DNA of 64,000 bases, from contig NZ_JABEQN010000008.1 of the NCBI RefSeq assembly GCF_014174165.1, positions 62,001-126,000 on the forward strand, written 5' to 3'. The translations under genes were made by a program, and so were the position numbers. This document shows, piece by piece, positions 4,561-28,222 of the stretch. The stretch is from Gluconacetobacter dulcium (GTDB lineage Bacteria; Pseudomonadota; Alphaproteobacteria; Acetobacterales; Acetobacteraceae). Every line of letters begins with the position of its first letter. The stretch's first letter is position 1. The notes beneath the pieces are model-generated. The model was not told the origin of the DNA. It saw only the letters and a program-made list of their open reading frames with translations, and did no database searches.

Positions 4561-4671
4561 GTTTCACCAGCGCCGATGAGGCGCTTTCCAGAGTTGAATA
4601 ACAATAAGCGGGGAGAAGAAGAGGGAAAGGGTCAGGAGGGAAGAAGACGCGCGCGGAAGCAGGGACAGAGG

Positions 4672-4801
4672 TCGCACCACATGGTGGGGAGCGGATCAAC
4701 CGGGTGGGTCCTCGTCATGCTCGCCGGCTGCGCCGCCTGCGCGTGCCTGCGGTCCCGGCGCAAAGCGCCGCCGTATGATCCCCGCCCCACCATGTGGTCG
4801 C
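4672..4801 (+). other. Long GC-rich hairpin with purine-rich leader (family type A)
   Basis: An imperfect inverted repeat of about 25 bp (4672-4699 with 4776-4801, around ccacatggtgggg) encloses a GC-rich core that recurs at 13.6, 18.0 and, more diverged, 19.05 kb. It is preceded by a purine-rich tract (4610-4670) and followed 34 bp later by a start codon. It may act as a structured 5' leader or a single-strand DNA element. Confidence 0.6.
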
Positions 4802-4834
4802 GCAAATGGGTCAAGAGAGAAAAGGACCCAGACA

Positions 4835-5260
4835 ATGACGCTCCATATCCTTGCCCATGGCCTCCCCGATCCGGACGGCCCCGCACGACCGGTCGCCGGC
4901 CGCCAGTTCGAGGCGCTCAGCGAGCTCGAGACACTGGCCGGTGTGACCGACCGGGTGGCCTTCTGGCGCCGGTTCAGCCACCTGCCCCTGCAATATCGCG
5001 TCCGGCGCGGCCAGGAGGTCCTGCATCAGAGCGTCCATGAGCAGATCGCGAAAGGCATGCTGACGCCCAAGGAGACCCCAAAGGAACGGGCCCTGCGCGC
5101 GCTCAAACGGGCGACGACGGCTTTCATCGAGCCCAGTGATCCGACGGCGCAACCGCTGCCGGACGTCCTTGATGCACTCGCCCGATCGGCCGACGCGGCA
5201 CGTGACGCCGGCGCGACGGCGCTCGAGATCATCGATGCCAGCGACGGGCTGGAGCATTAG
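4835..5260 (+). CDS. Hypothetical protein, 141 aa
   Basis: I do not recognise this family. The ATG at 4835 follows agagagaaaagga, a reasonable ribosome site, just after the long hairpin. The protein is soluble, with an arginine-rich middle and an alanine-rich, acidic C-terminal third, and has no evident motif or membrane segment. It precedes the large methylase/helicase by about 125 bp in the same direction and may be co-transcribed with it. Confidence 0.6.
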   Translation: MTLHILAHGLPDPDGPARPVAGRQFEALSELETLAGVTDRVAFWRRFSHLPLQYRVRRGQEVLHQSVHEQIAKGMLTPKETPKERALRALKRATTAFIEPSDPTAQPLPDVLDALARSADAARDAGATALEIIDASDGLEH

Positions 5261-5386
5261 CGCCTCCCCGTCCCTGCCCTCAACACCCTGACCCGTCATA
5301 GCGGCCACCTCCAGGTGGCCGTTCGTCGTTTCGCGCCCCCGGCCAGCTCGCTGCGCCGGGCGATCGCGCATGCCCGGAGCCCTTCC

Positions 5387-8300
5387 ATGGCCGATTTCGG
5401 AACCCAGTTCAGCCTCTTCGACAGCACGCCCCTCAGCGGGAAAGACACCTGCCTCTATTGGGGCGACCTGGAAGGAGAAGACGCCGACGCGGCGCCTGCC
5501 GCGTTCGCCAAGGCACTCGCCGAAGCCCCAGCCGTCGTGCCGCAGCGCGATTTCCGCCTGGCGGGCCTCCGTGGCCTTGCTGCGGGTTGGCAGGCCCGCG
5601 CGCGGGATAATTTGGCCGCCATCCGGCTGCTGGGAGAGCTTGAGCGAGACGAGCGCAACGCGACCGCGGCCGAGCAGGCGATTCTCAGTCGCTTCGTCGG
5701 CTTCGGCGCCGGCGATCTGGCCAACAATCTGTTCCCCCGCGCAGGCGACACCGTTGGCCGCGGCTGGGAAGAGATCGGCGCCGAGCTGACCGCCTGCACG
5801 AGCGAGACCGAGCGCGCGGCGCTGGCGAGGGCGGTGCAATACGCCCATTACACCCCGGAATATATCGTGCATACGATCTGGGACTTCCTGCTCGCGCGCG
5901 GCTTCCAGGGCGGCTCCGTGCTCGAGCCCGGGTGCGGCACCGGCCTGTTCATCGCCACACGCCCGGCAAAGCTCGACGGCAGCATCGCATTCACCGGCAT
6001 CGAGATGGACGCCGTGACCGCGCGGATCGCCGGGTGCCTGTATCCCCGGCAGTGGATCCGCCAGGAGGATTTCACCAAGGCGAAGCTCGACAGCGGATAC
6101 GACCTCGCGATCGGCAATCCGCCGTTCTCCAACCGGACCGTCCATAACGCCGACGACCGTGCCCTCTGGGGCTTCAGCCTCCACGACTATTTCATCGCCC
6201 GCTCGATCGAGGCCCTGCGGCCAGGCGGGATCGCGGCGTTCGTGACCTCGCGTCATACGCTCGACAAGAGCAGCACGACGGCAAGGGCACACATGCAGGG
6301 GATGGCAGACCTGCTGGGTGCGGTCCGGCTGCCCGCAACGGCGATGCGCGCCGATGCCGGAACCGACGTCGTGGTCGACGTCCTGGTCTTCCGTCGCCGC
6401 GCAATCGGCGAACTGCCGGGCGATGACCACTGGCTGGAGAGCGCGGAGATTCCCGACACCGATCTGGGCCAAGGCGCTCTGCACGTGAACCGCTACTATC
6501 TGGATCATGGCGAGCAGGTCCTCGGACGGCATGCCTGGACCACGAGCCAGTTCGGGCCGGACTATACCTGTGAGCCGATCGCCGGCGTTGCGCTGGACGA
6601 GGCGCTGCCGATCGCGCTCGGCCGCATCGCACCGGACGTTCGTTTCCCGGCGCCGACCGACGGTCGGATCGTGGCGCCGGCGGCCGACGGCCGCCAGATC
6701 GGCACCGCGGCGGATGGCGCCGACCTGAAGGAGGGCAGCTACTTCCTGGAAGGCGGCGTGCTGCACCAGATCGTCGCCGGACGATCGAGCCGGGTCCTGA
6801 TCCGGAAAGGCGAGCAGAAGGAGGGCCTGTTCCAGAAGCACGCGCGCATCATCGAGGCGCTGGTTCCGGTGCGTGACGCTGCGCGGCGCGTGCTGCGCGC
6901 CCAGATGGAAAACCAGCCGTTCGCGAAAGGGCAGGGGGACCTGAAGCGCGCCTACCAGGCGTTCGTGCGGCAGTTCGGACCGATCAACCTGACGAAGACG
7001 ACCGTGCGGGTGAATGAGACGACAGGTGTCGAAACCGAGACGCAGCGGCGCCCGAACCTGCAGCCGTTCTACGATGACCCGGATGTGTGGCTGGTCAGTT
7101 CGATCGAAGAATATGACGAAGCGACGGAGAGGGGCAGGCCCGGTCCGCTGTTCACCGACCGCGTCATCCATGCGCCGGTGGAGCCGGAAATCCATTCCGC
7201 TCACGACGCCCTGGCGGTCTCCCTGCACGATACCGGCCGCGTCGACATTCCGCTGATCGCGGAGCTTCTCGGGCGGTCCGAGAGCGACGTGGTGACGGAC
7301 CTCGGCTCGGCGATCTTTCTCGATCCAGCCTTTACCTTCCCGGGCCGGGATTCCTACGTCACGGCCGACGCCTATCTCAGCGGACCCGTGCGGACCAAGC
7401 TGGCGAAGGCTCGCGAGGCCGCCAGCCATGATGGCCGCTTCACCTGCAACGTCACGGCGCTGGAGGGGGTGCAGCCAGAGGACCTGCGGCCTTCCGATAT
7501 CACCGCCCGACTGGGCGCGCCCTGGCTTCCGGTGAGCGACGTCACGGATTTCGTTCGCGAGGTACTCGGGGTTGAGACGCGGATCCACCACACCGCGCAG
7601 GTGGCCTGCTGGAGCGTCGACAAACTGCCGTTCGCTGGCAAGGCCGAGGCGACATCTGTCTGGGGCACGGAGCGCCGCCACGCGGGCGAGCTGCTGGAGG
7701 ACGCGCTGACCCAGGCCAGTCCGAAGATCTACGACACCTGGACCGACCAGGACGGCGAACATCGTGTGTTGAACACGCAGGAGACGGAAGCGGCCAAGGA
7801 AAAGCTGGCAGCGATCAGGAGCGCATTCTCAACGTGGGTGTGGCAGGACGCCGAGCGTGCGGATCGCCTGGTGCGGCTCTACAACGACACCTACAACAAC
7901 CTGGTCGCCCGTAAATTCGACGGCGCGCATCTCCGCCTGCCGGGCGCCAGCACGACGATCCGGCTGCGTGAGCATCAGAAGCGGGTCATCTGGCGGATCA
8001 TCGCCACGGGGGGCACATACATCGCCCACGCCGTGGGGAGCGGCAAGACGTTCTCGATGTGCGCGGCCGTGATGGAGCAGCGCCGCCTTGGTCTGATCTC
8101 GAAGGCGATGATCGTCGTGCCCGGGCATTGCCTGGCGCAGATGGCGCGCGAGTTCCTGATGCTCTACCCGACGGCGAAGATCCTGGTCGCCGACGAGACG
8201 AATTTCGTGAAGGAGAAACGCCAGCGGTTCCTGGCGCGCGCCGCCACAGGGAATTGGGACGCGATCATCATCACCCACGATGCGTTCAAGTTCATTCCGG

Positions 8301-10513
8301 TCGAAGCCGCGTTCGAGCGGGAGATGATCGAGGCGCAGATCGCCTCATACGAGGAACTGCTCGACCAGGTGGACGGCGAGGACCGTCTCTCGCGCAAGCG
8401 CATCGAGCGGATGAAGGAGGGTATGGAGGCGAAGCTCGAAGGCCTCGCCGCCCGCAAGGATGATTTGGTGCATCTGGGCGAGATCGGGATCGACCAGATC
8501 CTCGTCGACGAGGCGCAGCAGTTTCGCAAGCTCAGTTTCGCGACCAACCAGTCCGACCTGAAGGGCATTGACCCGAACGGCAGCCAGCGGGCGTGGGACC
8601 TGTTCGTGAAGACCCGCTATCTGGCGGCGCGGAATCCGGAGCGTCCGCTGATCCTGGCCTCTGGCTCCCCGATCACCAACACGCTTGGCGAGCTCTACAC
8701 CGTTCAGCGCTACATGGCGCTGGAAAGCCTGCAGGAACGCTATCTGCACGAGTTTGATCCGTGGGCGGCGAATTTCGGGGAAACCCGCACCGAACTCGAA
8801 CTGCAGCCGAGCGGCCTTTACAAGCCGGTGACCCGCTTCACCGAGTTTGTGAACGTCGCCGATCTGATGGCGATGTATCTGCATTTTGCCGATGTCGTGC
8901 AGCAGGAGGATCTCCGCCGCTACGTGAAGCTGCCGGCAATTCAAGGCGGGCACCGCGAAATCGTCGTTGCGCCGGCGAATGACGATTTCCGCGCCTACCA
9001 GAAGGTGCTCGCCGAGCGCATCCGCGTCATCGAGAACCGGAAGGCGCGTCCCCAGAAAGGCGACGACATCCTTCTGTCGGTGATCAACGACGCGCGGCAC
9101 GCCGCGATCGACCTCCGGTTCGTCGAGCGCGACCCCGCGAACGAGAATGCGCCCAGCAAGCTCGACGTCATGATCCGCAACGTCTTCCGGATCTGGCAGG
9201 AGACGTCGGAGAACCGCTACACCAACCCGGAGACCGGCGGTCCGTATGACCTGCCGGGCGCCGTGCAGATGGTGTTCTCCGATCTCGGCACCGTCGCGGC
9301 CGAAGGGAAGCGCGGCTTCTCGGCGTATCTGTGGATGCGCGACGAGCTGGTGCGGATGGGTGTGCCCCGCGACCAGATCGCCTTCATGCAGGACTACAAG
9401 AAGGCGGCGGCCAAGCTCCGCCTGTTCGGTGACCTGAACAGCGGGCGCAAGCGGATCCTGATCGGCTCGACCGCAACCATGGGGACGGGGGTGAATGCCC
9501 AGCAGCGGCTGATTGCACTGCACCACCTCGACGTGCCCTGGCTGGTCTCCGACATCATCCAGCGTGAGGGGCGGATCGAACGCCAGGGCAATCAGAACCC
9601 GCTCATCCATATCTACGCCTACGCCCAGGAGGGATCGGTGGACGCCACGAACTGGCAGCTCCTGGAACGCAAGCTGCGCTTCATCTCGCTCGCCATGTCG
9701 GGGGACCGCTCGATCCGACGTATCGAGGACGTCAACGACGACGGCAATCAGTTCGCCATGGCCAAGGCGCTCGCGTCAGGCGATGCACGGCTGATGCAGA
9801 AGGCGGGGCTGGAGGCCGAGCTGGCCAGGCTCGAACGGCTCCACGCCGCGCATTACGACGACCAGTTCGCGGTGCGACGCGCCATCCAGGCGGGCGAGCG
9901 GGACATCGCCAGGGCGAACGAGCTGCTTCCGAAGATCGAGGCGGATATCGCGCGCCGGGAACCGACGCGGGGCGACGCATTCCGCTTCGAGGCGCCGCGT
10001 GGCGCCATGGCAGAGCGGGAGAGGGCAGGGGCCTTTCTCCTGGGGCAGGCCAGGATGGCCGAGAAGCAGGGGGAGGAGGGACGCTGGGTCCTCGGCCGCA
10101 TCGGCGGTTTCGACATCGTGCTCGAAGCGTGGGTGCAGCGGTTCCGCCTGGACGAGAAGCGCAAGGTCGAGGCCACATTGGCGATCGACTTCAGCCACGG
10201 AATCGCGGGGGTAGAGTTCGACGCCGACACAAAGCCCCTCGGCGTTGTGTCCAAAATCGAGCACGCGCTGTTGCGTCTGGACTCTACTCACGCCGAGACG
10301 CTGCGCAGTCGGGCGGACGCCGAGGGTCGGTTGCCCGCCTATCGGGCCCGGCTGGACGTGCCGTTCCGTGAGCAGGCGCTGCTCGACGATAAGCGGAACG
10401 CGCTGGCCGAACTGGAGGCGGAGCTTGCGGCAACGGCCAGCCCTGGCGGGAACGACAATGAAGCGGGTCCGGTGAATAATGCAGCCGCCGGGGACAGCGC
10501 GGCTGCTGCGTAG
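5387..10513 (+). CDS. Adenine-specific DNA methylase fused to SF2 helicase (COG4646 'N12 class' type)
   Basis: A 1,708-residue protein. An N-terminal Rossmann methylase has SAM motif LEPGCGTGLF (about 179) and catalytic IGNPPFS (about 243), indicating N6-adenine or N4-cytosine methylation. A helicase core follows: Walker A AHAVGSGKT (about 880), a DEAQ box (about 1040) and C-terminal helicase motifs around TATMGTGVNAQQR and QREGRIERQGN (about 1361-1400), then a coiled-coil-like tail. Such giant methylase-helicases are common on alphaproteobacterial plasmids; protection of plasmid DNA from host restriction is a plausible role but not proven. I took the ATG at 5387 (MADFGTQFSLFD); an upstream in-frame start at 5315 adds poorly conserved residues. 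An origin-type iteron lies inside the gene. Confidence 0.85.
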   Translation: MADFGTQFSLFDSTPLSGKDTCLYWGDLEGEDADAAPAAFAKALAEAPAVVPQRDFRLAGLRGLAAGWQARARDNLAAIRLLGELERDERNATAAEQAILSRFVGFGAGDLANNLFPRAGDTVGRGWEEIGAELTACTSETERAALARAVQYAHYTPEYIVHTIWDFLLARGFQGGSVLEPGCGTGLFIATRPAKLDGSIAFTGIEMDAVTARIAGCLYPRQWIRQEDFTKAKLDSGYDLAIGNPPFSNRTVHNADDRALWGFSLHDYFIARSIEALRPGGIAAFVTSRHTLDKSSTTARAHMQGMADLLGAVRLPATAMRADAGTDVVVDVLVFRRRAIGELPGDDHWLESAEIPDTDLGQGALHVNRYYLDHGEQVLGRHAWTTSQFGPDYTCEPIAGVALDEALPIALGRIAPDVRFPAPTDGRIVAPAADGRQIGTAADGADLKEGSYFLEGGVLHQIVAGRSSRVLIRKGEQKEGLFQKHARIIEALVPVRDAARRVLRAQMENQPFAKGQGDLKRAYQAFVRQFGPINLTKTTVRVNETTGVETETQRRPNLQPFYDDPDVWLVSSIEEYDEATERGRPGPLFTDRVIHAPVEPEIHSAHDALAVSLHDTGRVDIPLIAELLGRSESDVVTDLGSAIFLDPAFTFPGRDSYVTADAYLSGPVRTKLAKAREAASHDGRFTCNVTALEGVQPEDLRPSDITARLGAPWLPVSDVTDFVREVLGVETRIHHTAQVACWSVDKLPFAGKAEATSVWGTERRHAGELLEDALTQASPKIYDTWTDQDGEHRVLNTQETEAAKEKLAAIRSAFSTWVWQDAERADRLVRLYNDTYNNLVARKFDGAHLRLPGASTTIRLREHQKRVIWRIIATGGTYIAHAVGSGKTFSMCAAVMEQRRLGLISKAMIVVPGHCLAQMAREFLMLYPTAKILVADETNFVKEKRQRFLARAATGNWDAIIITHDAFKFIPVEAAFEREMIEAQIASYEELLDQVDGEDRLSRKRIERMKEGMEAKLEGLAARKDDLVHLGEIGIDQILVDEAQQFRKLSFATNQSDLKGIDPNGSQRAWDLFVKTRYLAARNPERPLILASGSPITNTLGELYTVQRYMALESLQERYLHEFDPWAANFGETRTELELQPSGLYKPVTRFTEFVNVADLMAMYLHFADVVQQEDLRRYVKLPAIQGGHREIVVAPANDDFRAYQKVLAERIRVIENRKARPQKGDDILLSVINDARHAAIDLRFVERDPANENAPSKLDVMIRNVFRIWQETSENRYTNPETGGPYDLPGAVQMVFSDLGTVAAEGKRGFSAYLWMRDELVRMGVPRDQIAFMQDYKKAAAKLRLFGDLNSGRKRILIGSTATMGTGVNAQQRLIALHHLDVPWLVSDIIQREGRIERQGNQNPLIHIYAYAQEGSVDATNWQLLERKLRFISLAMSGDRSIRRIEDVNDDGNQFAMAKALASGDARLMQKAGLEAELARLERLHAAHYDDQFAVRRAIQAGERDIARANELLPKIEADIARREPTRGDAFRFEAPRGAMAERERAGAFLLGQARMAEKQGEEGRWVLGRIGGFDIVLEAWVQRFRLDEKRKVEATLAIDFSHGIAGVEFDADTKPLGVVSKIEHALLRLDSTHAETLRSRADAEGRLPAYRARLDVPFREQALLDDKRNALAELEAELAATASPGGNDNEAGPVNNAAAGDSAAAA
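10199..10218 (+). repeat. Isolated iteron copy inside the methylase/helicase gene
   Basis: The sequence ggaatcgcgggggtagagtt matches the origin iteron consensus at 18 of the first 19 positions, in the same orientation as the array at 1029-1748 but about 8.5 kb away and within coding sequence (H-G-I-A-G-V-E-F). A match this long is unlikely by chance. Confidence 0.65.
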
Positions 10514-10584
10514 GAGAGGCTGGGAAAAATCAATTGACCGGCGTTGTTGGAGGACGCCGGCCATGCCAGGCTGCCAGGGTACGA

Positions 10585-10608
10585 AGGCCGCCGTTCATGG
10601 CGGCTTTC
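10585..10608 (+). terminator. Rho-independent-like terminator after the methylase/helicase
   Basis: Stem gccgcc/ggcggc with loop gttcat, preceded by aag and followed by a short ttt. It lies 75 bp downstream of the stop codon. The T-run is short. Confidence 0.5.
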
Positions 10609-10820
10609 GCCCCTCATCTTGGCCGTTCGATTGGTTTTCTCACTGCCTCAGAAGCGGACAAATCTTTGTGGATTAAAAACGCTTGGCGCTCGGCTGCCGA
10701 TGTTCTTCTAATTATGAGGGCATGGAAACCATCTCGCAGGATATTGCCTGTAGCTAATCGCCTGCTATGGTCATATGTACAAATGCAACATGAGAGTTTT
10801 AAAGATAGGATGAGAATTTC

Positions 10821-13363: not shown

Positions 13364-13576
13364 AGGAGATAAATTTATTTTTTATTATATTATTTGACAA
13401 AACATACGGATTTACTGAGGGTTATGATCGATTTGGAAAAGGCGGCGATGTCTACTTCCTCAGTTTCCGAACCAATAGTGGACAGGCAGATTCCCCCTCC
13501 TTGCGGACGAAAATGTAGGGGAAAAATAAGCGCGGAGTAGGCAAAGGAAGCGCAAAGCCAGACCAACCCGTCCGCA

Positions 13577-13659
13577 CCAAGTGGTGGGTGCTCCCCATGC
13601 TCGCCGGCTGCGCCGCCTGCGCGTGGGTTGCGCTCCCGGCGCCAGGGCGCCGCACTTGG
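13577..13659 (+). other. Long GC-rich hairpin before the cytosine methylase (family type A)
   Basis: Outer arms ccaagtg (13577-13583) and cacttgg (13653-13659) enclose a GC-rich core. Positions 13583-13650 are almost identical to 18002-18069, though the outer arms of the two elements are different and still pair. A purine-rich stretch (13505-13555) precedes it. The methylase ATG follows 50 bp later. Confidence 0.6.
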
Positions 13660-13709
13660 CCCGGCCGGGATGCCCCGGCTTCCCGACCCTGAAAAGGGAA
13701 GGGAAAACG

Positions 13710-15550: not shown

Positions 15551-15610
15551 CAAACAGGGGAGGAGGCGGAACACGGAAGACAAACAGAAGAGAAAGATGG
15601 CTGCCACGAC

Positions 15611-15672
15611 CCCGGCGCGCGCTCAAGGCCAAGGCGAGCGCGGCGTTGCCGCGGCCTTGCCCGCGCGCCGGG
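15611..15672 (+). other. GC-rich hairpin with purine-rich leader before the ParB-domain gene
   Basis: A 20-bp nearly perfect stem pairs 15611-15630 with 15653-15672 (cccggcgcgcg... against ...cgcgcgccggg). A purine-rich tract (15555-15600) comes immediately before. It lies about 90 bp upstream of the ParB-domain gene and belongs to the same architectural family as the hairpins at 4.7, 13.6 and 18.0 kb. Confidence 0.6.
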
Positions 15673-15761
15673 CCCGTGCCCGCCGGAAAGTATCAGGCAG
15701 GAAAGTGATGGCAGGGTGCCGTCGCTTGTCCGGATGCCTGCGCTCTCCGAAAGGCCGAACC

Positions 15762-17938: not shown

Positions 17939-17977
17939 GCAAGGAGCCGAGAAGAGCAGGCGAAGAGCGTGGGCTGC

Positions 17978-18096
17978 CAGAGCGGGCAGGCCCTGCCGAA
18001 AGGTGGGTGCTCCCCATGCTCGCCGGCTGCGCCGCCTGCGCGTGGGATGCGCTCCCGGCGCCACGGCGCCGCTTTCGACAGGTCCTCCCCGCCCTG
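17978..18096 (+). other. Long GC-rich hairpin (family type A)
   Basis: Imperfect outer arms 17978-18002 and 18072-18096 (from cagagcggg to cccgccctg) enclose a core at 18002-18069 nearly identical to that at 13583-13650. It lies between a coupled gene pair and the start of the next gene at 18131, with a purine-rich tract at 17941-17970. Confidence 0.6.
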
Positions 18097-18130
18097 GCCG
18101 GCCGATGGGCATTCCAGAAGGAGAAGACCG

Positions 18131-18804: not shown

Positions 18805-18820
18805 CTCGGTCCGAAACACC

Positions 18821-19012: not shown

Positions 19013-19126
19013 CAGAACATGGCGGCCGCCGCCAGAGCGTCGCCATGCTCGCGCGCTGCGCGCCCTGCGCGTGGCTCCGTGAACGGCGCTGACGCGCCGC
19101 TCTGGCCCCGGCCGCCATGTCCCGCC
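19013..19126 (+). other. Long GC-rich hairpin with purine-rich leader (family type A, diverged)
   Basis: Arms 19015-19039 and 19098-19126 pair over about 25 bp (acatggcggcc with ggccgccatgt). The core (ccatgctcgcgcgctgcgcg) is a diverged relative of those at 4.7, 13.6 and 18.0 kb. A purine-rich tract at 18960-19010 precedes it and the next gene begins 38 bp downstream. Confidence 0.6.
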
Positions 19127-19870: not shown

Positions 19871-19888
19871 CGTATCTGGAGATACAGC

Positions 19889-20893: not shown

Positions 20894-20897
20894 GAGA

Positions 20898-21338
20898 ATG
20901 GCCGAATATTTCACAAGATTCTCAGCGCGCCTCCCAATGACAAGCGAGAGCGCTGCGCATGAGGCTTTGCTCGCCCTGGAGGGGCGGCGCAAAGCCGGAG
21001 AGGCCCATGGCAATCCGAACCCTGAGGGTTTCGAGGCGGCGTATGACCATCTTGATGCAGCCGGAAGGCCGGTCGTTTGGCTCCACAGCCGTGCAGGCTC
21101 GCCCGATAACGTCGTTGCCTTCGTCCAGGATTGCGCAGAACGCGGTCTGACCGAGCCAGGTCTGTGGACGCTCATATGGTCGTTCGATTGCAGCAAGCCC
21201 CGGTTGGACGGCTATGGCGGCGGCGCCTGCATCGTCGACCTGGCGACGGGCGCAATCGTGGAGAGGATCGACCTGAACCATTGGGCCAGCGTCCAGACAG
21301 GACGAATGCGCGCGACGGAGCGAGACGGATCGAGCTGA
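20898..21338 (+). CDS. Hypothetical protein, 146 aa
   Basis: Start at ATG 20898 (MAEYFTRFSARLP), five bases after the DUF5983-like stop, so likely one operon. It has an N-terminal helical region with a conserved-looking HEALLALEGRRKAGE and a C-terminal beta-rich part ending in DLATGAIVERIDLNHW. Not a family I recognise. Confidence 0.6.
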   Translation: MAEYFTRFSARLPMTSESAAHEALLALEGRRKAGEAHGNPNPEGFEAAYDHLDAAGRPVVWLHSRAGSPDNVVAFVQDCAERGLTEPGLWTLIWSFDCSKPRLDGYGGGACIVDLATGAIVERIDLNHWASVQTGRMRATERDGSS

Positions 21339-21405
21339 TCGTGCCGTCCTTCGGATAGCGGCTCGCAAAACGGGCTCCCGCGCGATCTGATCGCCCAGAC
21401 TCCGC

Positions 21406-21426
21406 GAGCCATTTTGGACACAAATC
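21406..21426 (+). repeat. Dispersed 21-bp leader repeat, copy 1
   Basis: The core attttggacacaaatc preceded by gagcc occurs here and again at 22972-22992, each time shortly before a downstream gene of the accessory region. Weaker similarity continues for about 20 bp (gtcgcgggca against gtcgcaggca). Confidence 0.6.
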
Positions 21427-21524
21427 CTCCGATGTCGCGGGCAATGGCAAGGCGCCGGGGACGTCGGAACGGGAGAAGAGAACGAGGAGAGAGGAAAAGA
21501 GAGAGAAGGGGAGGGGAGACCGCT

Positions 21525-21607
21525 CTCATGGGGCGGGGAACGCTGCAAGGGTTCGTCGCAGGCTCCCGGCGCAAGCGCCGCCCTTGCACCGTCCCCCGCC
21601 CCATGAG
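21525..21607 (+). other. Long hairpin (family type B, copy 1)
   Basis: Arms 21525-21551 and 21581-21607 pair over 27 bp with two mismatches; the 29-nt loop (21552-21580) contains a nested cggcgcaagcgccg hairpin. The loop is identical to that at 25008-25036. A purine-rich tract (21467-21515) precedes it and a gene starts 41 bp downstream. Confidence 0.75.
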
Positions 21608-21647
21608 GCTGCCGATCAGGTCGAAAACAGACTTGAGAGAGGCAGAA

Positions 21648-21872
21648 ATGACGCGGAATACGAGCGATCCCGACCTGAACGCCGCGCGGGCGGCAGCACG
21701 ACGGTTCGGTTCCGAAGCGATGATCTTTGAGGATCTGGCGGTCGGGGAGCGGTTCTGTTTTGCCGGCAGTTCGAGCCAGACGGTCTGCATCAAGATCCGT
21801 CGCAGACGATACAGTCTGGACGGTCGGGTCTGCTACGCGACGGCCACGCGCGCGGTCGTCAGAAGCGCGTAG
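21648..21872 (+). CDS. Hypothetical protein, 74 aa
   Basis: The ATG at 21648 follows gagagaggcag. The small protein (MTRNTSDPDLNAARAAARRF, then beta-rich residues FEDLAVGERFCFAG) ends in a basic segment KIRRRRYSLDGR. It has its own terminator 35 bp downstream and its own upstream hairpin, so appears to be a single-gene unit. Function unknown. Confidence 0.6.
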   Translation: MTRNTSDPDLNAARAAARRFGSEAMIFEDLAVGERFCFAGSSSQTVCIKIRRRRYSLDGRVCYATATRAVVRSA

Positions 21873-21906
21873 CCGGCAGAGACCTCACTTCTCGTCGCAC
21901 TCTTCA

Positions 21907-21932
21907 GGCGCCCGTCAATGGGCGCCTTTTTT
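21907..21932 (+). terminator. Rho-independent terminator
   Basis: Stem ggcgccc/gggcgcc with loop gtcaat followed by six T, 35 bp after the stop of the 74-aa gene. Confidence 0.8.
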
Positions 21933-21956
21933 CGTATCAACACAGGATTTCCCGCC

Positions 21957-22934
21957 ATGACGACCGATCCGCGGTGCGCAGAAGCCCACGGGCCGAAGGC
22001 GCGCGCGCCAGGCCCATTTTCTGGGTGCGAGCACGGTTGCCGCCTCCGCGTGACGCTTGCGAGCGGACATCCCGTCGAGGGTGAGCTTCAGATCTTCGGC
22101 GGACATCGCATGCTGATTATCCGCGATCCCGCTGCCCCGATGGGTCACCGGGTGGAAGGGCCGCTTCGCCGGGCCGACGTCACGCGCGTCGAGATTCTGC
22201 AGAGCCGGGAAGAGGTGCGCGCGGAGCAGCGGGCGCAGCGCTTTGGCAAGCTGGTCTTCACCTGGGAGCCGAAGACGCGGGACGACAACCGCGCTCAACT
22301 GGAGGGGATTGCCCGCGCGATTGCCGATATCCCGCGTGACGGCGATTTTCATCGCCGGCTTGAGCTGGAGGCTCAGTTCGCGCACCTGGCCGGCCGCATC
22401 GCGCTTGGCCAGGCAAAGCGCGCGTGGGTGCTCGCGGAGGCAGCGTGGTATCGGGCTCACAACAGTCCCCCCTCGATGGCGGATCTGTGGGGAAGCGACC
22501 TCGCCTCACCGTCCTGCTTCCGCCGGCCCCGCGAAGAGGATTTCGATCCGGATCCGGCCGTTCGCAATCGGCCGGTGCCGGTTCCGACCTGGGTTCTGCA
22601 AGATCCGCGCTCGATCAGGAACATGCTTGCCGCCTTGCAGGAAGCAGGCCTGTCTGCCCGCATCCATCGCCTCGGCGACCTGCCTCATGAGCATGGAGGC
22701 ATCCTGGTGAAAATGCCGGTCAGCGGGCGCGCCCAGTTTGCGTTGATCGGCCGAAGAAATGGCGCCGGCGTCATGGACTGGACCCACGCATGGGACGTGC
22801 TGGACACGCCGACAGGGGCCAGGCGCCTCGGCGCGGTGCGGCGATGCGCTGCGTACCACCGGATGCTGAAGGTGCTTCAGGTCGGACGGGTCGCGCTTCA
22901 GCTCGATTTCGCCACCATGCTCGAACGCCTTTGA
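21957..22934 (+). CDS. Hypothetical protein, 325 aa
   Basis: The ATG at 21957 lies 25 bp after a terminator; cacaggatttcccgcc precedes it. The protein is soluble and basic, with a central helical region (RRLELEAQFAHLAGRIALGQ) and a C-terminal alpha/beta part that includes KMPVSGRAQFALIGRR. I do not recognise a family. Its position beside ArdC suggests an accessory role in plasmid establishment, which is inference only. Confidence 0.65.
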   Translation: MTTDPRCAEAHGPKARAPGPFSGCEHGCRLRVTLASGHPVEGELQIFGGHRMLIIRDPAAPMGHRVEGPLRRADVTRVEILQSREEVRAEQRAQRFGKLVFTWEPKTRDDNRAQLEGIARAIADIPRDGDFHRRLELEAQFAHLAGRIALGQAKRAWVLAEAAWYRAHNSPPSMADLWGSDLASPSCFRRPREEDFDPDPAVRNRPVPVPTWVLQDPRSIRNMLAALQEAGLSARIHRLGDLPHEHGGILVKMPVSGRAQFALIGRRNGAGVMDWTHAWDVLDTPTGARRLGAVRRCAAYHRMLKVLQVGRVALQLDFATMLERL

Positions 22935-22971
22935 GGTGGATGGGTCCGCCACACGCGGCCCACCCGCAGTC

Positions 22972-22992
22972 GAGCCATTTTGGACACAAATC
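22972..22992 (+). repeat. Dispersed 21-bp leader repeat, copy 2
   Basis: Second copy of the element at 21406-21426 (gagcc followed by attttggacacaaatc), 63 bp before the ardC start. The surrounding sequence to 23050 includes a short purine-rich stretch but no long hairpin comparable to those elsewhere. Confidence 0.6.
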
Positions 22993-23054
22993 GCTTCGGC
23001 GTCGCAGGCAGACGGCCGCGCCCGAGGCAGCCAGAAGAAGAAGGAATCCGTAAC

Positions 23055-23987
23055 ATGGCAACCAGGGCCAAAGCCTCTGCCGTACGCTCTTCGGGTGAAC
23101 GCGCCGACATTTACCAGGAGGTCACGGACCGGATCGTCGCTGAACTCGAGAATGGGCGCCTGCCGTGGGTCCAGCCGTGGTCGAATACTGTGGCGGCGCC
23201 CTCGGTGCCACGCAACGCCACCACAGGACGTCGTTATTCCGGGATTAACGTTCTGTTGCTCTGGGGCAGTCTCCAGCAGTGCGGGTTCGCAACTCAGCGC
23301 TGGCTGACGTTTCGCCAGGCATTGGCCGCCGGCGGGAATGTTCGCAAGGGAGAGAAAGGCACGACGGTATTCTTCGCGAACACCTTCGTGCCTGAAGGGC
23401 AAAAGCTGGAAGCCGAGCCGCGGGCGGTGCCCTTCCTTAAACGGTTCACGGTGTTCAACATCGATCAGTGCGACGGTTTGCCCATCGAGATGACGGCGGC
23501 GCCTTCACCTCAGGCCGATGGTGACATTGTGCCGCGAGCGGAGCGTCTGATCTGCGCGACGGGAGCGGATCTGCGTATTGGAGGTGACAAGGCTTTCTAT
23601 ATGCCTGCCCTGGATTACATACAGGTTCCTCCGCGATTTGCGTACTTCGACCAGATCAATTGGTATCGAACCGTCATGCACGAGACCGGGCATTGGAGCG
23701 GCCATGTAAAACGCCTTAACAGAGACCAGACGGGAAGTTTCGGCACCCATGCCTATATGGGCGAGGAGATCGTAGCCGAGCTGACAGCAGCTTTTGTTCT
23801 TGCGGAACTGAGCATCCAGCCGTCGGTGCGCCACGCTGATTACATTGGCGCGTGGATCGATATGCTCCGCGACGACAAACGCGCGATTTTCAAGGCCGCG
23901 CGGCTCGCCACGCAAGCGGCAGATTATATTCTGGCCTTCGAGGACGCCACGGTCGACCAGACCGGTCCCGATCAACTGGCGGCATAG
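23055..23987 (+). CDS. ardC: ArdC-type antirestriction protein
   Basis: The 310-residue protein has the ArdC layout: an N-terminal ssDNA-binding domain (about 12-140, DIYQEVTDRIVAELENGRLP, GRRYSGINVLLLW) and a C-terminal zincin-type metallopeptidase domain with HETGHWSGH at about 209-217 followed by EEIVAELTAAF. ArdC of plasmid pSa/R388 protects incoming single-stranded plasmid DNA during conjugation, so this is a leading-region type gene. Start at ATG 23055 after gaaggaatccgtaac. All the motifs I would expect are intact. Confidence 0.9.
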   Translation: MATRAKASAVRSSGERADIYQEVTDRIVAELENGRLPWVQPWSNTVAAPSVPRNATTGRRYSGINVLLLWGSLQQCGFATQRWLTFRQALAAGGNVRKGEKGTTVFFANTFVPEGQKLEAEPRAVPFLKRFTVFNIDQCDGLPIEMTAAPSPQADGDIVPRAERLICATGADLRIGGDKAFYMPALDYIQVPPRFAYFDQINWYRTVMHETGHWSGHVKRLNRDQTGSFGTHAYMGEEIVAELTAAFVLAELSIQPSVRHADYIGAWIDMLRDDKRAIFKAARLATQAADYILAFEDATVDQTGPDQLAA

Positions 23988-23991
23988 GAAG

Positions 23992-24375
23992 ATGCGCGCC
24001 GTGATCACCGTGTTCTGGGGTAATCCCTGCACGGTACCCCCGCCCGATATCCCGACACTCGACGACGGACGGACGCGCTGGGCCTGCACGCTCCTGGCGG
24101 CAGGCGATAGCGAGGCGGTCCGGGCTACGCATGCGCCGGCGGTGCGGCCTGGCCTCGGGTGGTGCCATGGCTGGTCCCCCCTGCTGGATGCCCCCAGGCG
24201 CTGGAGCGGCGAAAGGAAAGCCGCCGCACGGCGGCGCAATCTGCGGCGCCGTCTCGATCGCGCGGTGCCGCTGTTCGCTGATCAGCTGGAGGCAGACGAA
24301 CTCGCAAGACGCCCCGCCTATTTCGATGCCAGCAGTATCGAAGACGAGGAGAGAAGAAGAGAGGAGAGAACCTGA
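23992..24375 (+). CDS. Hypothetical protein, 127 aa
   Basis: The ATG at 23992 lies five bases after ardC, with taggaag upstream, so the two are probably co-transcribed. The protein starts with MRAVITVFWGNPCTVPPPDI and is Arg-rich in its second half. Its last residues (EDEERRREERT) are encoded by the purine-rich tract that elsewhere acts as an intergenic leader, so the natural C-terminus may have been altered by recombination there. Confidence 0.5.
   Translation: MRAVITVFWGNPCTVPPPDIPTLDDGRTRWACTLLAAGDSEAVRATHAPAVRPGLGWCHGWSPLLDAPRRWSGERKAAARRRNLRRRLDRAVPLFADQLEADELARRPAYFDASSIEDEERRREERT
24343..24365 (+). repeat. 23-bp purine-rich direct repeat, left copy
   Basis: This copy starts gacgaggagagaagaagag and is identical over 23 bp to 24930-24952. 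The pair flanks a segment carrying one gene in reverse orientation. Confidence 0.65.
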
Positions 24376-24473
24376 CATGCTCACCCGACTGGAGGATGAG
24401 GGTTCCAGTAGGAGTGAGCATTAAGCTGCCTTCTCGGTGCTGCATGCTGCAACGGGTCGCTACATGGGTGGGG

Positions 24474-24842
24474 TCAGCGGCAGATTTGCGCCGCAACGGC
24501 GTCCAGTTTGCGCTCGTAAGAGGCCCGCTCGGCGGCGCTGAGAAAACCCTGTTTCTGCGCAAAAGCATCCGTGTTCGCACGGACCCGTTGCACATCTTTC
24601 CATAGCCGGTCCGCAGTGGGCTGACTCAGCCGGCGCGCCTTGCGCGCAGTGCTGATATCCGCCTGCAGGATATTGGCCCGCATGGAAATATGGGCTTGCC
24701 CCGGATCTTTGATCGTCCCGCCCAACTCCCCCACCAAAGAGTGTTGCTCCCCAAGATTGCAACTCGGAAACGCATCCGAGCGGGTTTGTGCGTGGGCTGA
24801 GGACAGACCCAAAATCAGCCCAGAAAAAATGATTAACTTCAT
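24474..24842 (-). CDS. Small secreted/periplasmic protein, 122 aa
   Basis: The product begins with a clear signal peptide (MKLIIFSGLILGLSSAHA-Q) and has a helical mature part with basic and Gln/Ala-rich stretches (KARRLSQPTADRLWKDVQRV) and a final cysteine that may pair with one near residue 28. It is transcribed against all neighbours and is flanked by the 23-bp purine-rich repeats, suggesting a later insertion. Periplasmic export is inferred; the family is unknown to me. Confidence 0.65.
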   Translation of the reverse strand: MKLIIFSGLILGLSSAHAQTRSDAFPSCNLGEQHSLVGELGGTIKDPGQAHISMRANILQADISTARKARRLSQPTADRLWKDVQRVRANTDAFAQKQGFLSAAERASYERKLDAVAAQICR

Positions 24843-24929
24843 CGATCACTCCAATTCCGCACTGCTCGTTATAGTCTCCTGGGCGTCGATTTCACACCAA
24901 GCGTGTCGCACGTGCCGTCGGAGCTGCCA

Positions 24930-24952
24930 GACGAGGAGAGAAGAAGAGAGGA
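24930..24952 (+). repeat. 23-bp purine-rich direct repeat, right copy
   Basis: Identical to 24343-24365. It forms the start of the purine-rich leader before the type B hairpin at 24981. Confidence 0.65.
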
Positions 24953-24980
24953 AAGAAATTAAGGAAGAGGGCAGGTCGCT

Positions 24981-25063
24981 CTCATGGGGTGGCGGCCGGT
25001 GCAAGGGTTCGTCGCAGGCTCCCGGCGCAAGCGCCGCCCTTGCACCGGCCGCCACCCCATGAG
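24981..25063 (+). other. Long hairpin (family type B, copy 2), perfect 27-bp stem
   Basis: Arms 24981-25007 and 25037-25063 are perfectly complementary over 27 bp; the 29-nt loop is identical to the loop at 21552-21580. Compared with that copy, three stem positions change on both arms so that pairing is kept. A purine-rich leader (24930-24976) precedes it. Confidence 0.8.
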
Positions 25064-25162
25064 GCGCGGAAAGCATCGAGGAGAAGAAGAAAGAGGGGTC
25101 AGCGCTGTCTGCCCTGTCTTCGGCTCCCGATGCCTTTCCATCCGAGCCGCAGGAGCGCCCTC

Positions 25163-25342
25163 ATGGCAGACCATCGCAAAACCCCGACACGTCTGACCGA
25201 TACGTTCGAAGCCATTGCGCTGATCGGTAGCAGCGTTGTGATCGCATTGACCGCATGGCTGATCATCGCCGCGCCGGCCTTTCTCGCCGGGATTCCGTCA
25301 GATCTCGATCACCGGCACCCGGTTCAGGTCGCGGCCCGATGA
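25163..25342 (+). CDS. Small membrane protein, 59 aa
   Basis: The ATG at 25163 follows gcaggagcgccctc. The protein has one hydrophobic segment (about 17-41, ALIGSSVVIALTAWLIIAAP) between a polar N-terminus and a short polar tail. Its stop overlaps the next start (ATGA), so it is the first gene of a coupled series behind the type B hairpin. Function unknown. Confidence 0.6.
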   Translation: MADHRKTPTRLTDTFEAIALIGSSVVIALTAWLIIAAPAFLAGIPSDLDHRHPVQVAAR

Positions 25343-25560
25343 GCGGACACGCCGAAGCCCACGACGGATCGGGGGGCGCCATCACGGCGTCTCCCAATTC
25401 CTGCACCGAGACAGTGGATGCGCTGGTCGACGAGGCTCTTGCCTATCAGGCCGAGTCCTTCGACGCCGATGAGCCGATCGACGGCGGCGACCTGGTGGAA
25501 TGGTTTGCGGCCTGGCGGATCGCGCTGCGCGAGGCGCGGCGGCACGAGCGGCAGGTTTGA
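25339..25560 (+). CDS. Hypothetical acidic protein, 73 aa
   Basis: Starts at ATG 25339, overlapping the stop of the small membrane protein by four bases. It is an acidic helical protein (ETVDALVDEALAYQAESFDA) ending in an Arg-rich helix. It is followed within four bases by the interrupted methylase gene, so the three form one operon. Confidence 0.6.
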   Translation: MSGHAEAHDGSGGAITASPNSCTETVDALVDEALAYQAESFDADEPIDGGDLVEWFAAWRIALREARRHERQV

Positions 25561-25564
25561 ACCG

Positions 25565-26347
25565 ATGTCCGGCCGGATCAAGACGATCGCGAAGCTGCTC
25601 GAAGCGGCCCGGTATCGGCACGACCTCTACACGACGTTCTCCGACTGTATGGAGGCGATGGCGATTTCCATGGCGAATGCCGTCGACCTGACGCAGCGCG
25701 AGGAGCGGGAAGCCCGGTATCTGAAGATCGTCGGCCGCTATGACCGGCAGACGATCGAGACCTAGCCCCAGGTCCTCGCGGAGGTTGCCCTCGCGCTGGA
25801 GGAAAGCCCGACCGACATTCTCGGCGCCGTCTTCGGGATGCTGGAACTGCACAATGCGCATCGGGGCCAGTTCTTCACGCCATTCGAGGTGTGCCGCCTC
25901 ATGGCGGGAGTTCTTATCGGCGATGGCGGGGAGGCCCGGGGAATCATCGAGCAATCCGGATTTGTCACGGTGCAGGAGCCGGCCTGCGGTGCCGGCGCCA
26001 TGGTTATCGCCCTTGCCGAGGCGTTGCGGGACGCCGGGATCAATTACCAGCAACACATGCACGTCACCGCGATCGACGTGGATCCCCGCGCAGCGCACAT
26101 GGCGTTCGTCCAGTTCTCGCTGCTGCATATCCCGGCGACCGTGATCGTTGGCAATTCGCTGACGCTGGAGACCCGCGAATACTGGTTCACGCCGGCACAT
26201 ATTCTCGGCGGGTGGTCGCGCAAGCTGGCCGCAAGTGCTGCTGCTGCGCCTGAGGCTTCAGTCCCGGTCGCCCCCGTGGCGACGCCAGGTGTGCCCACCC
26301 AGCCAGTGCCCGCCGAGCGCCCGCTGCTGCAACTTTCCCTGTTCTGA
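25565..26347 (+). pseudogene. Adenine-type DNA methyltransferase interrupted by an in-frame TAG
   Basis: One reading frame runs from ATG 25565 (MSGRIKTIAKLLEAARYRHD) to TGA 26347, broken only by TAG at 25763-25765 after residue 66. Upstream is a helical N-terminal part; downstream are GQFFTPFEVCRLMAG and the SAM motif EPACGAGAMV, typical of small plasmid methylases. The frame on both sides is unchanged and the sequence continues sensibly (QVLAEVALALEE), so a single substitution such as TTG to TAG explains it. Translation could restart at ATG 25838 to give 169 residues. Alternatives are a sequencing error or amber suppression. Confidence 0.7.
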
Positions 26348-26374
26348 ACCGCGCCGAAGCGCTGGAGAAATGCC

Positions 26375-26773
26375 ATGATCCGCCAATATTACGCCTCCCC
26401 CTTTCAGGGGGGCGATAACCCGCTGCGCGTCGGCTGCGTTGCGGTCGGCACAATCTTCCGCCTGCCGGCGCCCAGGGAGCGTTACGCATCCTGGATCGTG
26501 GAGGCGTTTCTGAATGGCCAGTGCATGGCCTGTGCCTACAACCGGCGCACCGGGCGCTGGGAGGACCGCTACCTCTCCCGCCGCTCCGACACCGTGGTTA
26601 TCCGCTCTCTGGCGCATGGCAAGCGTGTGACCGTCGCCTTGCGTTGGCTTCTGCACGAGGGAGGGGACGACGCGATCGCCGCGCCCTATCCCGACCTGCC
26701 CGACGTGTACCGCTTCCATGGCGCCTATCGCCGTGCGGCCGGGGCCCGGTGCGCGGGGAGGATCGCGGCATGA
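26375..26773 (+). CDS. Hypothetical protein, 132 aa
   Basis: The ATG at 26375 follows gctggagaaatgcc. It is a beta-rich soluble protein (RVGCVAVGTIFRLPAPRERY, RRTGRWEDRYLSRRSDTV) with no motif I recognise. Its stop overlaps the next start (ATGA). Confidence 0.6.
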   Translation: MIRQYYASPFQGGDNPLRVGCVAVGTIFRLPAPRERYASWIVEAFLNGQCMACAYNRRTGRWEDRYLSRRSDTVVIRSLAHGKRVTVALRWLLHEGGDDAIAAPYPDLPDVYRFHGAYRRAAGARCAGRIAA

Positions 26774-27288
26774 CGGTCGGCGTTCAGTTTCCGGCCCTTC
26801 GGCGTCCGGCGCTGGCCGCCGGGGGCTTTACCGCGACCCGCTGGCACAGTGCCGACGAGAAGGCGCGGATGGGCGACGCGATCCTGGCCTTCATTGCGCG
26901 GGGCATGCCGAGGTCCGGATGGACAATGTCGCTCTACAACCGGCTGTCGAACATGTTCGGCTTCATCGCGCATTACGACCGGCACGGCTTCTGGCACACC
27001 CATTTCGCCAGCACGGCAGGGCGGGTCGCGTTCCTCGAGCAGATCGCGGGTTATCCGTGCTGGGGGCAGCCGACGGCAGTCTGGTCGGACGTCGAGCGGG
27101 AGATCCGGGCTCGCGTTCTCGAGTCCGGGCTGATTGCGGCGTACCGCGCCCAGGAGAGGCAGGAGACGGCATGCGCCGAGCGGGAGCAACTGGCCCGCCT
27201 ATTGGTGAAACATGGCCAAGCGCAGCACGGAGACCTGCATGCTGCCGCAGCGAGGCCCGGACCGGCTTCGCAATTGTCGCTCATCTAG
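26770..27288 (+). CDS. Hypothetical protein, 172 aa
   Basis: Coupled to the preceding gene by a four-base ATGA overlap. The protein has a helical core with several aromatic residues (MSLYNRLSNMFGFIAHYDRH, GFWHTHFASTAGRVAFL) and an Arg/Glu-rich helix before a short tail ending in QLSLI. That ending resembles those of the interrupted methylase (LQLSLF). A bidirectional terminator follows. Confidence 0.65.
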   Translation: MTVGVQFPALRRPALAAGGFTATRWHSADEKARMGDAILAFIARGMPRSGWTMSLYNRLSNMFGFIAHYDRHGFWHTHFASTAGRVAFLEQIAGYPCWGQPTAVWSDVEREIRARVLESGLIAAYRAQERQETACAEREQLARLLVKHGQAQHGDLHAAAARPGPASQLSLI

Positions 27289-27296
27289 GTGCAATG

Positions 27297-27326
27297 CACC
27301 CGGCCCGAGAACAATGCGGCCGGGTG
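27297..27326. terminator. Bidirectional terminator between convergent genes
   Basis: A perfect 9-bp stem cacccggcc/ggccgggtg with a 12-nt loop lies between the convergent genes ending at 27288 (+) and 27332 (-). No T-run is present on either side. Confidence 0.55.
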
Positions 27327-27331
27327 TCGGA

Positions 27332-27841
27332 TTATGCCGCTTGTGCGGTCAGCAGGCGGCCGTGGCCGTCCAGTTTGGACTCCATGAAGGGGACTGCCAT
27401 CCGCGGTACCCTGCGGATGATGAACTCCGAGCCGGTCGGAATCCACAGCCACCACTGGAGACCCTTGTGCTCGAGGAGAGGCTCGCCTCGCACGAACCGA
27501 ATGCCCTTCCCTGCTCGGGGAATCAAGCGGTCCTTCAATACGCCCGCGACCTGCCGCCCGCCGAGATAGATATCGTCGTGGAAGCGTCGAAACAGCGGGG
27601 AGCCGCCGTTTTCTTCGACCGCGACTGTGAGGTCGACCTGATCTGCTACCGTCTCCGGCCGGCCGTCCACGCCGAAGAGCATATGGCACATGGCGCGCAA
27701 GTCGGATTCCCATTTGGCTTCGAACCGCCATTTGCCCTTGCCGACGAATCGTCCGCGATATCGGCGAGCCTGGGTGGAGAGCTCGGGGTGGAACGGCGCT
27801 TCGAGCGTAATGTAGGCCCCGTCGACCGAAAGTATCGCCAT
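27332..27841 (-). CDS. Hypothetical protein, 169 aa, opposite strand
   Basis: The minus-strand ATG at 27841 is preceded by gaggtcatc as ribosome site. The protein (MAILSVDGAYITLEAPFHPE) is beta-rich with many aromatic residues and a basic central part (RYRGRFVGKGKWRFEAKWES). I do not recognise the family. It is one of few genes in this region read against the plus-strand block, and its upstream region (27850-27950) is AT-richer and probably holds its promoter. Confidence 0.65.
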   Translation of the reverse strand: MAILSVDGAYITLEAPFHPELSTQARRYRGRFVGKGKWRFEAKWESDLRAMCHMLFGVDGRPETVADQVDLTVAVEENGGSPLFRRFHDDIYLGGRQVAGVLKDRLIPRAGKGIRFVRGEPLLEHKGLQWWLWIPTGSEFIIRRVPRMAVPFMESKLDGHGRLLTAQAA

Positions 27842-27985
27842 GATGATGACCTCAGTGTGAGTCGAAACTGTCGTGATTCTATTGGCGTCGATTCGCGATG
27901 TACAGACAAAAATGTAGCGGGACAGAAGAAAAGATCGTGATTGAGCAAAGAGAGTCACGAAAGAGAAGGGAGGGGTGGGGAAGGC

Positions 27986-28188
27986 AGTGGCTGTAGCCGC
28001 GTCGCCCTCGGGTTGCTGCGGTCTGGACCGGGCGGCTCTCCCGTTAATCCCCGGCCTGCGGCCGCCTGCGGTTCCGGCGTCACCGTGAAGCGGCACGCCG
28101 CTTCCGCACCACTGACGCCTTCAGGGATCAACACTCGCTTTCCGCCCGGTCCCTGTCGACCGCACCCGAGGGAGACGCGGCTACCGCC
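27986..28188 (+). other. Very long hairpin before ssb (about 45-bp imperfect stem)
   Basis: Positions 27986-28035 pair with 28142-28188 through several uninterrupted blocks (tagccgcgt/acgcggcta, ccctcgggt/acccgaggg, gcggtc/gaccgc, ggaccgggcgg/ccgcccggtcc). The 106-nt apical part contains further GC-rich repeats. A purine-rich tract (27945-27985) comes first and the ssb start codon lies 35 bp after the element, the same layout as the other hairpins. Confidence 0.7.
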
Positions 28189-28222
28189 CCGTCCGGGAAG
28201 AGAAACGAGAAGGAAATCAGAG

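Follow-up and report, generated by a model that had tools for sequence, protein, structure and literature searches.

Folded DNA that an RNA polymerase or a primase reads only while it is single-stranded is known from single-strand origins (sso), single-strand initiation sites (ssi) and the minus-strand origin of M13. To our knowledge, single-strand origins number one or a few per replicon and do not stand before each gene. In plasmid F, the sections of the source available to us describe Frpo as a single-stranded promoter that gives zygotic expression (PMC9849209), and the Frpo/ssi set of enterobacterial plasmids appears, in the available text, as the experimentally known set of such promoters (PMC11541004, PMC9849209). 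The Frpo/ssi elements of the F and ColIb-P9 leading regions are hairpins of the transferred strand that precede ssb or establishment genes facing the origin of transfer, oriT (same sources, same extent). Here we analyze a window of 64,000 nucleotides from Gluconacetobacter dulcium (positions 62001-126000 of the 150-kb contig NZ_JABEQN010000008.1), in which eight intergenic sites carry long G+C-rich hairpins. We propose, with a probability of about 0.6, that these hairpins act as single-stranded-DNA promoters in the leading region of a conjugative plasmid, serving genes that would be expressed early in the recipient. The proposal rests on a fold that favors the transferred strand and on its placement gene by gene before anti-defense genes, at about promoter distance from their start codons.

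All eight sites were read and measured, with hairpin extents assigned by us from predicted folds. An initial inspection of the letters alone, the sequence-only reading, had claimed that a purine tract, a GC-rich hairpin and a nearby start codon recur at each of them; this was confirmed, the ATG lying 16 to 96 nt from the hairpin at 8/8 sites. The purine tract, taken as the best 45-nt fraction just 5′ of the hairpin, has a purine fraction of 0.78 to 0.98 at all sites, compared with a median of 0.58 and a 99th percentile of 0.78 for random positions scanned likewise; the lowest value, at the 18.0-kb site, stands at that percentile. The hairpins are 86 to 196 nt long and, folded as single-stranded DNA of the minus strand, rank among the best 0.1 to 0.7% of the 130-nt segments of the window. 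The sites are as follows, with E values from the core model R1 described below.

4603..4647, plus strand: purine tract of the 4.7-kb site (pyrimidine on the presumed transferred strand), purine fraction 0.91.
4671..4818, minus strand: full-core three-way-junction hairpin 4.7, E 7.9e-20; ATG 4835, 16 nt on, of a 141-aa product without Pfam match, then a large methylase-helicase gene (5387-10513).
13557..13690, minus strand: full-core hairpin 13.6, E 9.7e-19; C5 cytosine DNA methylase gene (PF00145), ATG 13710, 19 nt on.
15600..15685, minus strand: reduced-core hairpin 15.6; ParB_N gene, ATG 15762, 76 nt on.
17974..18107, minus strand: full-core hairpin 18.0, E 4.1e-18; ATG 18131, 23 nt on, of a 146-aa product with CxxC motifs and without Pfam match.
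19017..19120, minus strand: full-core hairpin 19.05, E 1.2e-9; LPD30/LPD29 gene (PF18850/PF18847), ATG 19164, 43 nt on.
21522..21607, minus strand: short-core hairpin 21.5; gene for 74 aa, ATG 21648, 40 nt on.
24977..25066, minus strand: short-core hairpin 25.0; gene for 59 aa, ATG 25163, 96 nt on.
27991..28186, minus strand: variant hairpin 28.1; ssb, ATG 28223, 36 nt on.

A model search of the whole genome found the full core at four of the eight sites (4.7, 13.6, 18.0 and 19.05; E 1.2e-9 to 7.9e-20) and no further place under E 0.02. That four cores are related while their outer arms are unrelated and still pair, another claim of the sequence-only reading, also held: the 13.6- and 18.0-kb sites are near-identical over 71 nt (97%), and their outer arms have diverged yet pair. 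A shorter core is present at 25.0 (E 0.13) and 21.5 (E 0.48), two sites that are 84% alike over 114 nt, and 21 PLSDB records match the 25.0 hairpin at E <= 0.1. The core model did not match the reduced site at 15.6 or the variant at 28.1, which has an extended outer stem. Two purine tracts, at 24342-24370 and 24929-24957, are 97% alike, and the first lies without a hairpin a few bases 5′ of an ATG; tract and hairpin are thus separable.

Model R1 was built, with covariation, from an alignment of 16 copies of the core. Among 84 matches (75 distinct), 97.1% of the alignment cells pair and 17 of 19 pairs vary on both sides, with a covariation score of 0.382 versus 0.106 when shuffled and at most 0.065 when slid; the alignment was fitted to the model and hence leans towards it. 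The element thus resembles Rfam families in having a covarying structure of the catalogued kind. No Rfam family matched the window at its gathering score, and sub-threshold matches were the only ones between 4 and 29 kb. A described RNA family was rejected on this basis; C4 antisense RNA at 25.0 kb on the minus strand, for example, scores 37.1 bits, below its gathering score of 45. Literature searches of open-license PMC papers yielded no description of such elements in Alphaproteobacteria.

At E <= 0.001, the model matched 34 of 150 genomes of the family (own genome included) and neither of two other genomes of the genus. It matched 2 of 289 genomes drawn from the class, one of them our own, and 4 of 299 drawn from the phylum, one our own and the rest of the same class; these scans of genome draws used stricter filters, which lose weak matches. 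A pattern scan of species genomes yielded at least 116 stretches, and 75 of those 116 also match the model at E <= 0.01. By name, the model-confirmed stretches are nearly all alphaproteobacterial (Acetobacteraceae, Rhodobacteraceae, Hyphomicrobiales), the exceptions being four metagenome-assembled genomes (MAGs; L098, L100, L148, L149) and a sequence labelled Mycobacterium (L130). Three of four viral contigs match the model as well. Model-confirmed copies thus lie on IMG/VR contigs (L207, L208, L209) and in Nitrospinia/Scalindua MAG bins (L098, L100); those in non-alphaproteobacterial bins may reflect either misbinning or a wider spread.

For several of the following analyses we used a set of 149 elements. 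Copies more than 95% alike were dropped, as were contig-end elements where a test required flanks, and the model hits L107:2175, L174:2682, L149 and L202 (all below 25.2 bits) were excluded; two low scorers, L068 and L069, apparently chance hits in coding sequence, were retained. On the gene strand, the fold consists of an outer stem P1 and two arms, P2 and P3, that form a three-way junction, with CAA/TTG frequent at the inner end of P1. Arm P2 contains an internal loop (GTnCTCn ... nTnCGnT) and the paired motifs CCATGC/GCGTGG. In the 93 elements in which both anchors were found, P1 pairing falls from 0.67 at step 21, counted from the anchor, to 0.22 at step 22, which indicates that the length of P1 is fixed though its sequence varies among copies. 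Of 75 elements, 55 have a TTG in a −35-like position. For want of −10 enrichment, we rejected a sigma-70 promoter within the stem; the position before genes and the strand bias of the fold led us to reject an ordinary terminator or attenuator.

The fold stands before a recurrent set of genes. Within about 420 nt downstream of copies of the element, the families encountered, identified by Pfam on one representative each and otherwise by motif, are ArdC (ArdcN plus zincin), ArdA, SSB, ParB_N, C5 and N6/N4 methylases and LPD30/29, together with DUF6876, PAPS reductase and the start of a giant methylase-helicase. In relatives, genes that look ParB-like by eye (L077, L081, L147, L153) and an ssb gene (L087) follow full-core copies; their counterparts in the window follow the reduced and variant forms. 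A keyword list recognized a leading-type gene behind 64 of the 149 copies, which is a lower bound, since the list missed, for example, the 4.7-kb site of the window. The comparison across homologues argued against random placement: an open reading frame (ORF) whose ATG follows a Shine-Dalgarno sequence begins no more than 130 nt away on the gene side in 56 of 136 elements, and on the other side in 11.

Three kinds of observation bear on which strand folds, namely mismatches, loops and energies. In a neutral inverted repeat, mismatches containing C and those containing G are expected to be equally frequent. Counted on the gene strand, anchored and without realignment, P1 has 532 C-containing and 168 G-containing mismatches, the former prevailing in 85 of the 93 anchored elements and the latter in 3; A.C outnumbers G.T by 152 to 67 (47 elements versus 19). 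Read on the opposite strand, the C-type mismatches become G.T (152), G.G (193) and G.A (187), which are the least harmful mismatches in DNA. The asymmetry among the 64 elements before leading-type genes is 252 C-type to 37 G-type, with 89 A.C and 12 G.T (44 elements versus none, of 45 anchored); the other 85 elements have 280 and 131, respectively (41 elements versus 3, of 48 anchored). These anchored counts replace earlier ones from local alignment (A.C 115/G.T 19; 97/9) and are less extreme; we prefer them because local alignment can pick its own register. Terminator-like hairpins examined as an RNA control had 6 G.T and 11 A.C in 34 hairpins, too small a number to inform.

Many arms carry loops of sizes other than three. 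Of the 120 C(NNN)G triloops in the elements (stem of at least 4), 75 read GNA on the opposite strand and 5 on the gene strand, compared with 32 GNA and 54 of its complement among 545 outside the elements (stem of at least 5, record strand). Both arms contribute: in P2, 41 of 97 have a triloop, of which 28 read GNA on the opposite strand and 4 on the gene strand; for P3, the corresponding numbers are 57 of 110, 37 and 1. GNA and GNNA loops are described, in the accessible part of the source, as extraordinarily stable DNA mini-hairpins (PMC4686876). With DNA parameters, the transferred strand has the lower ensemble energy in 54 of 74 elements (p 1.7e-6), versus 115 of 225 random segments; RNA parameters give 38 of 74 and 119 of 225, i.e., no strand preference. 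All eight sites of the window favor the minus strand as DNA, as exemplified by the 13.6 hairpin (−50.7 kcal/mol on the minus and −45.9 kcal/mol on the plus strand). Thus, from the mismatch bias, the GNA triloops and the DNA energies, the fold under selection is most likely that of the DNA strand complementary to the genes, which would be the transferred strand. It is formally possible that the folding molecule is an RNA copied from that strand; G.U should then exceed G.G and G.A far more than observed.

The assignment of the transferred strand comes from the plasmid setting. The window carries a MobF relaxase, a coupling protein, two ssb genes and ArdC-type, ParB_N, LPD29/30 and TOPRIM proteins, and related plasmids have a similar gene run. 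Features other than the hairpins are as follows.

22980..23987, plus strand: ArdC-type antirestriction protein gene (ArdcN plus zincin; PF08401/PF18818), in the same gene run, for which no hairpin of its own was identified.
31617..32531, plus strand: DUF3991/TOPRIM primase-like gene (tblastn), a candidate alternative reader.
53676..56876, plus strand: MobF relaxase gene (tblastn, 47.7% identity to a plasmid MobF).
58339..60138, minus strand: type IV secretion system coupling protein gene (tblastn).

The hairpin-led genes lie on the plus strand and face the relaxase side. Conventionally, the MobF side of such genes is the one that holds oriT and the lagging side. Relaxase genes are usually found within the lagging region, according to the accessible portion of one survey (PMC11541004), and the hairpin genes point at the relaxase; the minus strand of the window is therefore likely to be both the transferred strand and the template of these genes, with the position and polarity of oriT deduced from the relaxase. 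Among the matches listed, the hairpin and the relaxase gene lie on the same strand in 38 of 42 public plasmids, a concordance whose p of 5.7e-8 overstates independence, many of the plasmids being related. This count used tblastn with the MobF of the window and blastn with three of its elements and one element of a relative, covered the listed rows only, and omitted NZ_LT900339, which duplicates NC_006672. In the concordant plasmids, the hairpin lies a median of 41.6 kb upstream of the relaxase gene among the matches listed. The covarying structure, the same gene families in other genera, the leading-region orientation and the three strand signs together support the suggestion of the sequence-only reading that one regulatory or single-strand-DNA device is used for a whole gene set.

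The conserved fold, the favored strand, the gene set and the orientation were computed; from the model that follows, the fold would drive expression of the genes behind it. In mating, the minus strand of the window would enter the recipient as single-stranded DNA with the oriT side, on the right, leading. Each element would fold in the entering strand into a three-way junction, with an outer stem of fixed end that tolerates G-containing mismatches and two arms that often end in DNA-specific GNA triloops. An RNA-synthesizing enzyme of the recipient, RNA polymerase being the likeliest candidate, would dock on the fold and start RNA near the base of the stem, using the entering strand as the template, into the gene behind. 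The genes for the methylase, the ParB-domain protein, the LPD29/30 protein, SSB and others would thus be transcribed before the complementary strand exists. As the template is already single-stranded past the stem, melting may be unnecessary. Once the plasmid is double-stranded, the fold would be lost and the genes would fall silent, so that expression would be transient. We give somewhat less than even odds to the broader proposal that these are a hitherto undescribed class of structural DNA elements across Alphaproteobacteria, in which a GNA-capped three-way junction acting only in the transferred strand would control a zygotic anti-defense regulon gene by gene, through promoter recognition without a −10 box and perhaps with a dedicated enzyme or adaptor.

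By analogy, the element may work like Frpo. F has the same layout, its ssb, methylase, antirestriction, ParB and psiB genes being directed towards traM. With DNA parameters, the transferred strand is likewise the one on which its hairpin is more stable, the Frpo2 hairpin region and both copies of a 0.5-kb repeat showing the same sign. An orphan methylase gene before such a promoter has a precedent in M.EcoGIX of pESBL, to judge from the part of the report available (PMC7736820). The element differs from Frpo in its G+C-rich three-way junction, conserved core, often GNA-capped arms, frequent TTG without −10 and repetition gene by gene. We do not claim membership of the Frpo family: a −10 box and sequence similarity were looked for and not found, and direct homology to the Frpo of F, the only Frpo/ssi plasmid compared, was rejected because the model finds no hit there. 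By eye, CGTGGnnTGCGCTCCCGGC occurs both in the F leading-region repeat (L090, around 8220, upstream of Frpo2) and in the 13.6 and 18.0 cores. A likeness by eye of the right half of the core to a stretch beside Frpo2 was not confirmed by the model. The second comparison is with the early promoters of phage N4, which the consulted portion of the source describes as template-strand hairpins that SSB stabilizes and whose three-base loop contains a sheared G:A pair (PMC4496689). The element shares with them the template-strand DNA hairpin and the compact three-base G:A loop, and N4 RNA starts just past the stem (same portion, PMC4496689). The stems in N4 span at most about 7 bp and are read by a phage polymerase, whereas the fold described here is far larger.

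The main rival to a promoter function is a primase role, in which ssi- or sso-like sites on the folded transferred strand recruit a primase (DUF3991/TOPRIM or DnaG) or RNA polymerase for complementary-strand synthesis and the adjacency to genes is incidental. The strand evidence from mismatches, triloops and energies serves it equally, a TOPRIM primase-like gene is present in the same region, no −10 box was found, and Frpo itself reportedly primes as well as transcribes, to go by the title of Masai and Arai 1997. We nevertheless regard priming as unlikely, as on its own it hardly explains eight sites in 24 kb, each 16 to 96 nt before an ATG, or the recurrence of the same gene families downstream of the element in other genera. 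A decidedly less likely account is that of dispersed mobile hairpins, REP- or attC-like recombination sites or insertion sequence (IS) targets without a role in expression. The copies before leading-type genes speak against it, since they differ in their outer arms yet keep the fold and the strand bias (44 elements versus 0) as well as their position before the start codon; it draws support from the common 3′ flank and IS-like neighbors of the class II copies described below, and from inverted pairs of elements such as those of Shinella p5.

It is very unlikely that the hairpin acts as a leader-RNA regulator in the 5′ untranslated region of the mRNA, as an attenuator, a riboswitch-like element or a control of ribosome access. 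Start codons are close to the hairpins, the fold is good as RNA, and two gene-strand U-G pairs hardly vary (conserved in 65 of 69 and 60 of 67 of the sequences that have letters there), all as expected of such a leader. On the gene strand, however, A.C exceeds G.U (152 versus 67 in all anchored elements, 89 versus 12 before leading-type genes), which is the opposite of an RNA stem, the GNA triloops belong to the opposite strand, folding energies with RNA parameters favor neither strand, and Rfam has no match at gathering scores. We rate lowest the possibility of template-strand hairpins extruded from double-stranded DNA by supercoiling, in the style of the N4 virion RNA polymerase promoters: the two arms do often end in GNA triloops on the template strand, but extrusion of branched G+C-rich folds of 86 to 196 nt seems unlikely and the leading-region geometry would be superfluous.

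Several observations weigh against the promoter reading. No −10 box was detected, TATAAT-like hexamers 15 to 19 nt past the conserved TTG being no more frequent than at random in either arm. No recognized leading-type gene lies behind 85 of the 149 copies. These include class II copies (L034, L039, L040, L142, L148, L084, L126), which have their own common 3′ flank of about 200 nt; several adjoin IS256- or IS110-like ORFs (family names by eye), and they are possibly IS target sites or IS-borne folds. In the 85 copies without a recognized gene, A.C and G.T are nearly equal (63 and 55), and these copies share the triloop bias (28 versus 2 of 50), which implies a property of folded DNA wider than a promoter role. 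The 3′ arm is C-rich overall (883 C, 444 G); without C.C and G.G, mismatched C and G number 154 and 47 in the 5′ arm and 185 and 56 in the 3′ arm, so that the C excess is present in both. Because plasmids are related and mismatches fall at shared positions, the counts are not independent. oriT itself was not located in the window, and the leading-region placement uses the relaxase as a proxy. Four of the 42 plasmids are discordant (NZ_CP011122, NZ_CP014675, NZ_CP021468 and NZ_CP025059, the last with two relaxase places), and three-quarters of the concordant elements lie 21 to 53 kb from the relaxase gene and a quarter beyond 53 kb, farther than in F. Finally, with filters off, the best match of R1 within 50 to 67 kb of F (E 0.018) falls outside both Frpo repeat copies, and inside them the match is weak (E 8.3).

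Other structures were noted in the window and in relatives. Directly 5′ of the 4.7 element, 4128-4560 holds about four tandem 112-nt repeats, with the palindrome GTTCTGACGTCAGAAC in three and an imperfect form in the fourth. At 41507-41637, about 320 bp 5′ of the second ssb (41960), a long inverted repeat, TATCAACAGGGG ... CCCCTGTTGACA, surrounds the core-like TGCGGTCCCGCGC. Two near-alike giant double hairpins about 555 nt apart (48226-48355 and 48781-48910) flank a short ORF some 5 kb from mobF, the former being the most stable 130-nt segment of the window as RNA; they may serve for single-strand priming or belong to oriT. In relatives, elements also occur as inverted pairs enclosing about 0.5 to 8 kb, as in L026 (17203, plus strand, and 21917, minus strand), L076, L172, L180 and L121.

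Two large surveys searched by similarity to Frpo/ssi and to candidates chosen by −35 and −10 boxes, as stated in the accessible parts of both (PMC11541004, PMC12826799), and such surveys would likely miss this family. If the promoter reading is true, plasmids of acetic acid bacteria, roseobacters and rhizobia would express early genes one by one from the entering DNA. The element would then be a marker of leading regions and of candidate anti-defense genes, several without an assigned function, and would offer a second system for testing how RNA synthesis is initiated on folded single-stranded DNA. It would represent a new structural class of single-stranded-DNA promoter, and possibly more than that if its reader differs from that of Frpo.

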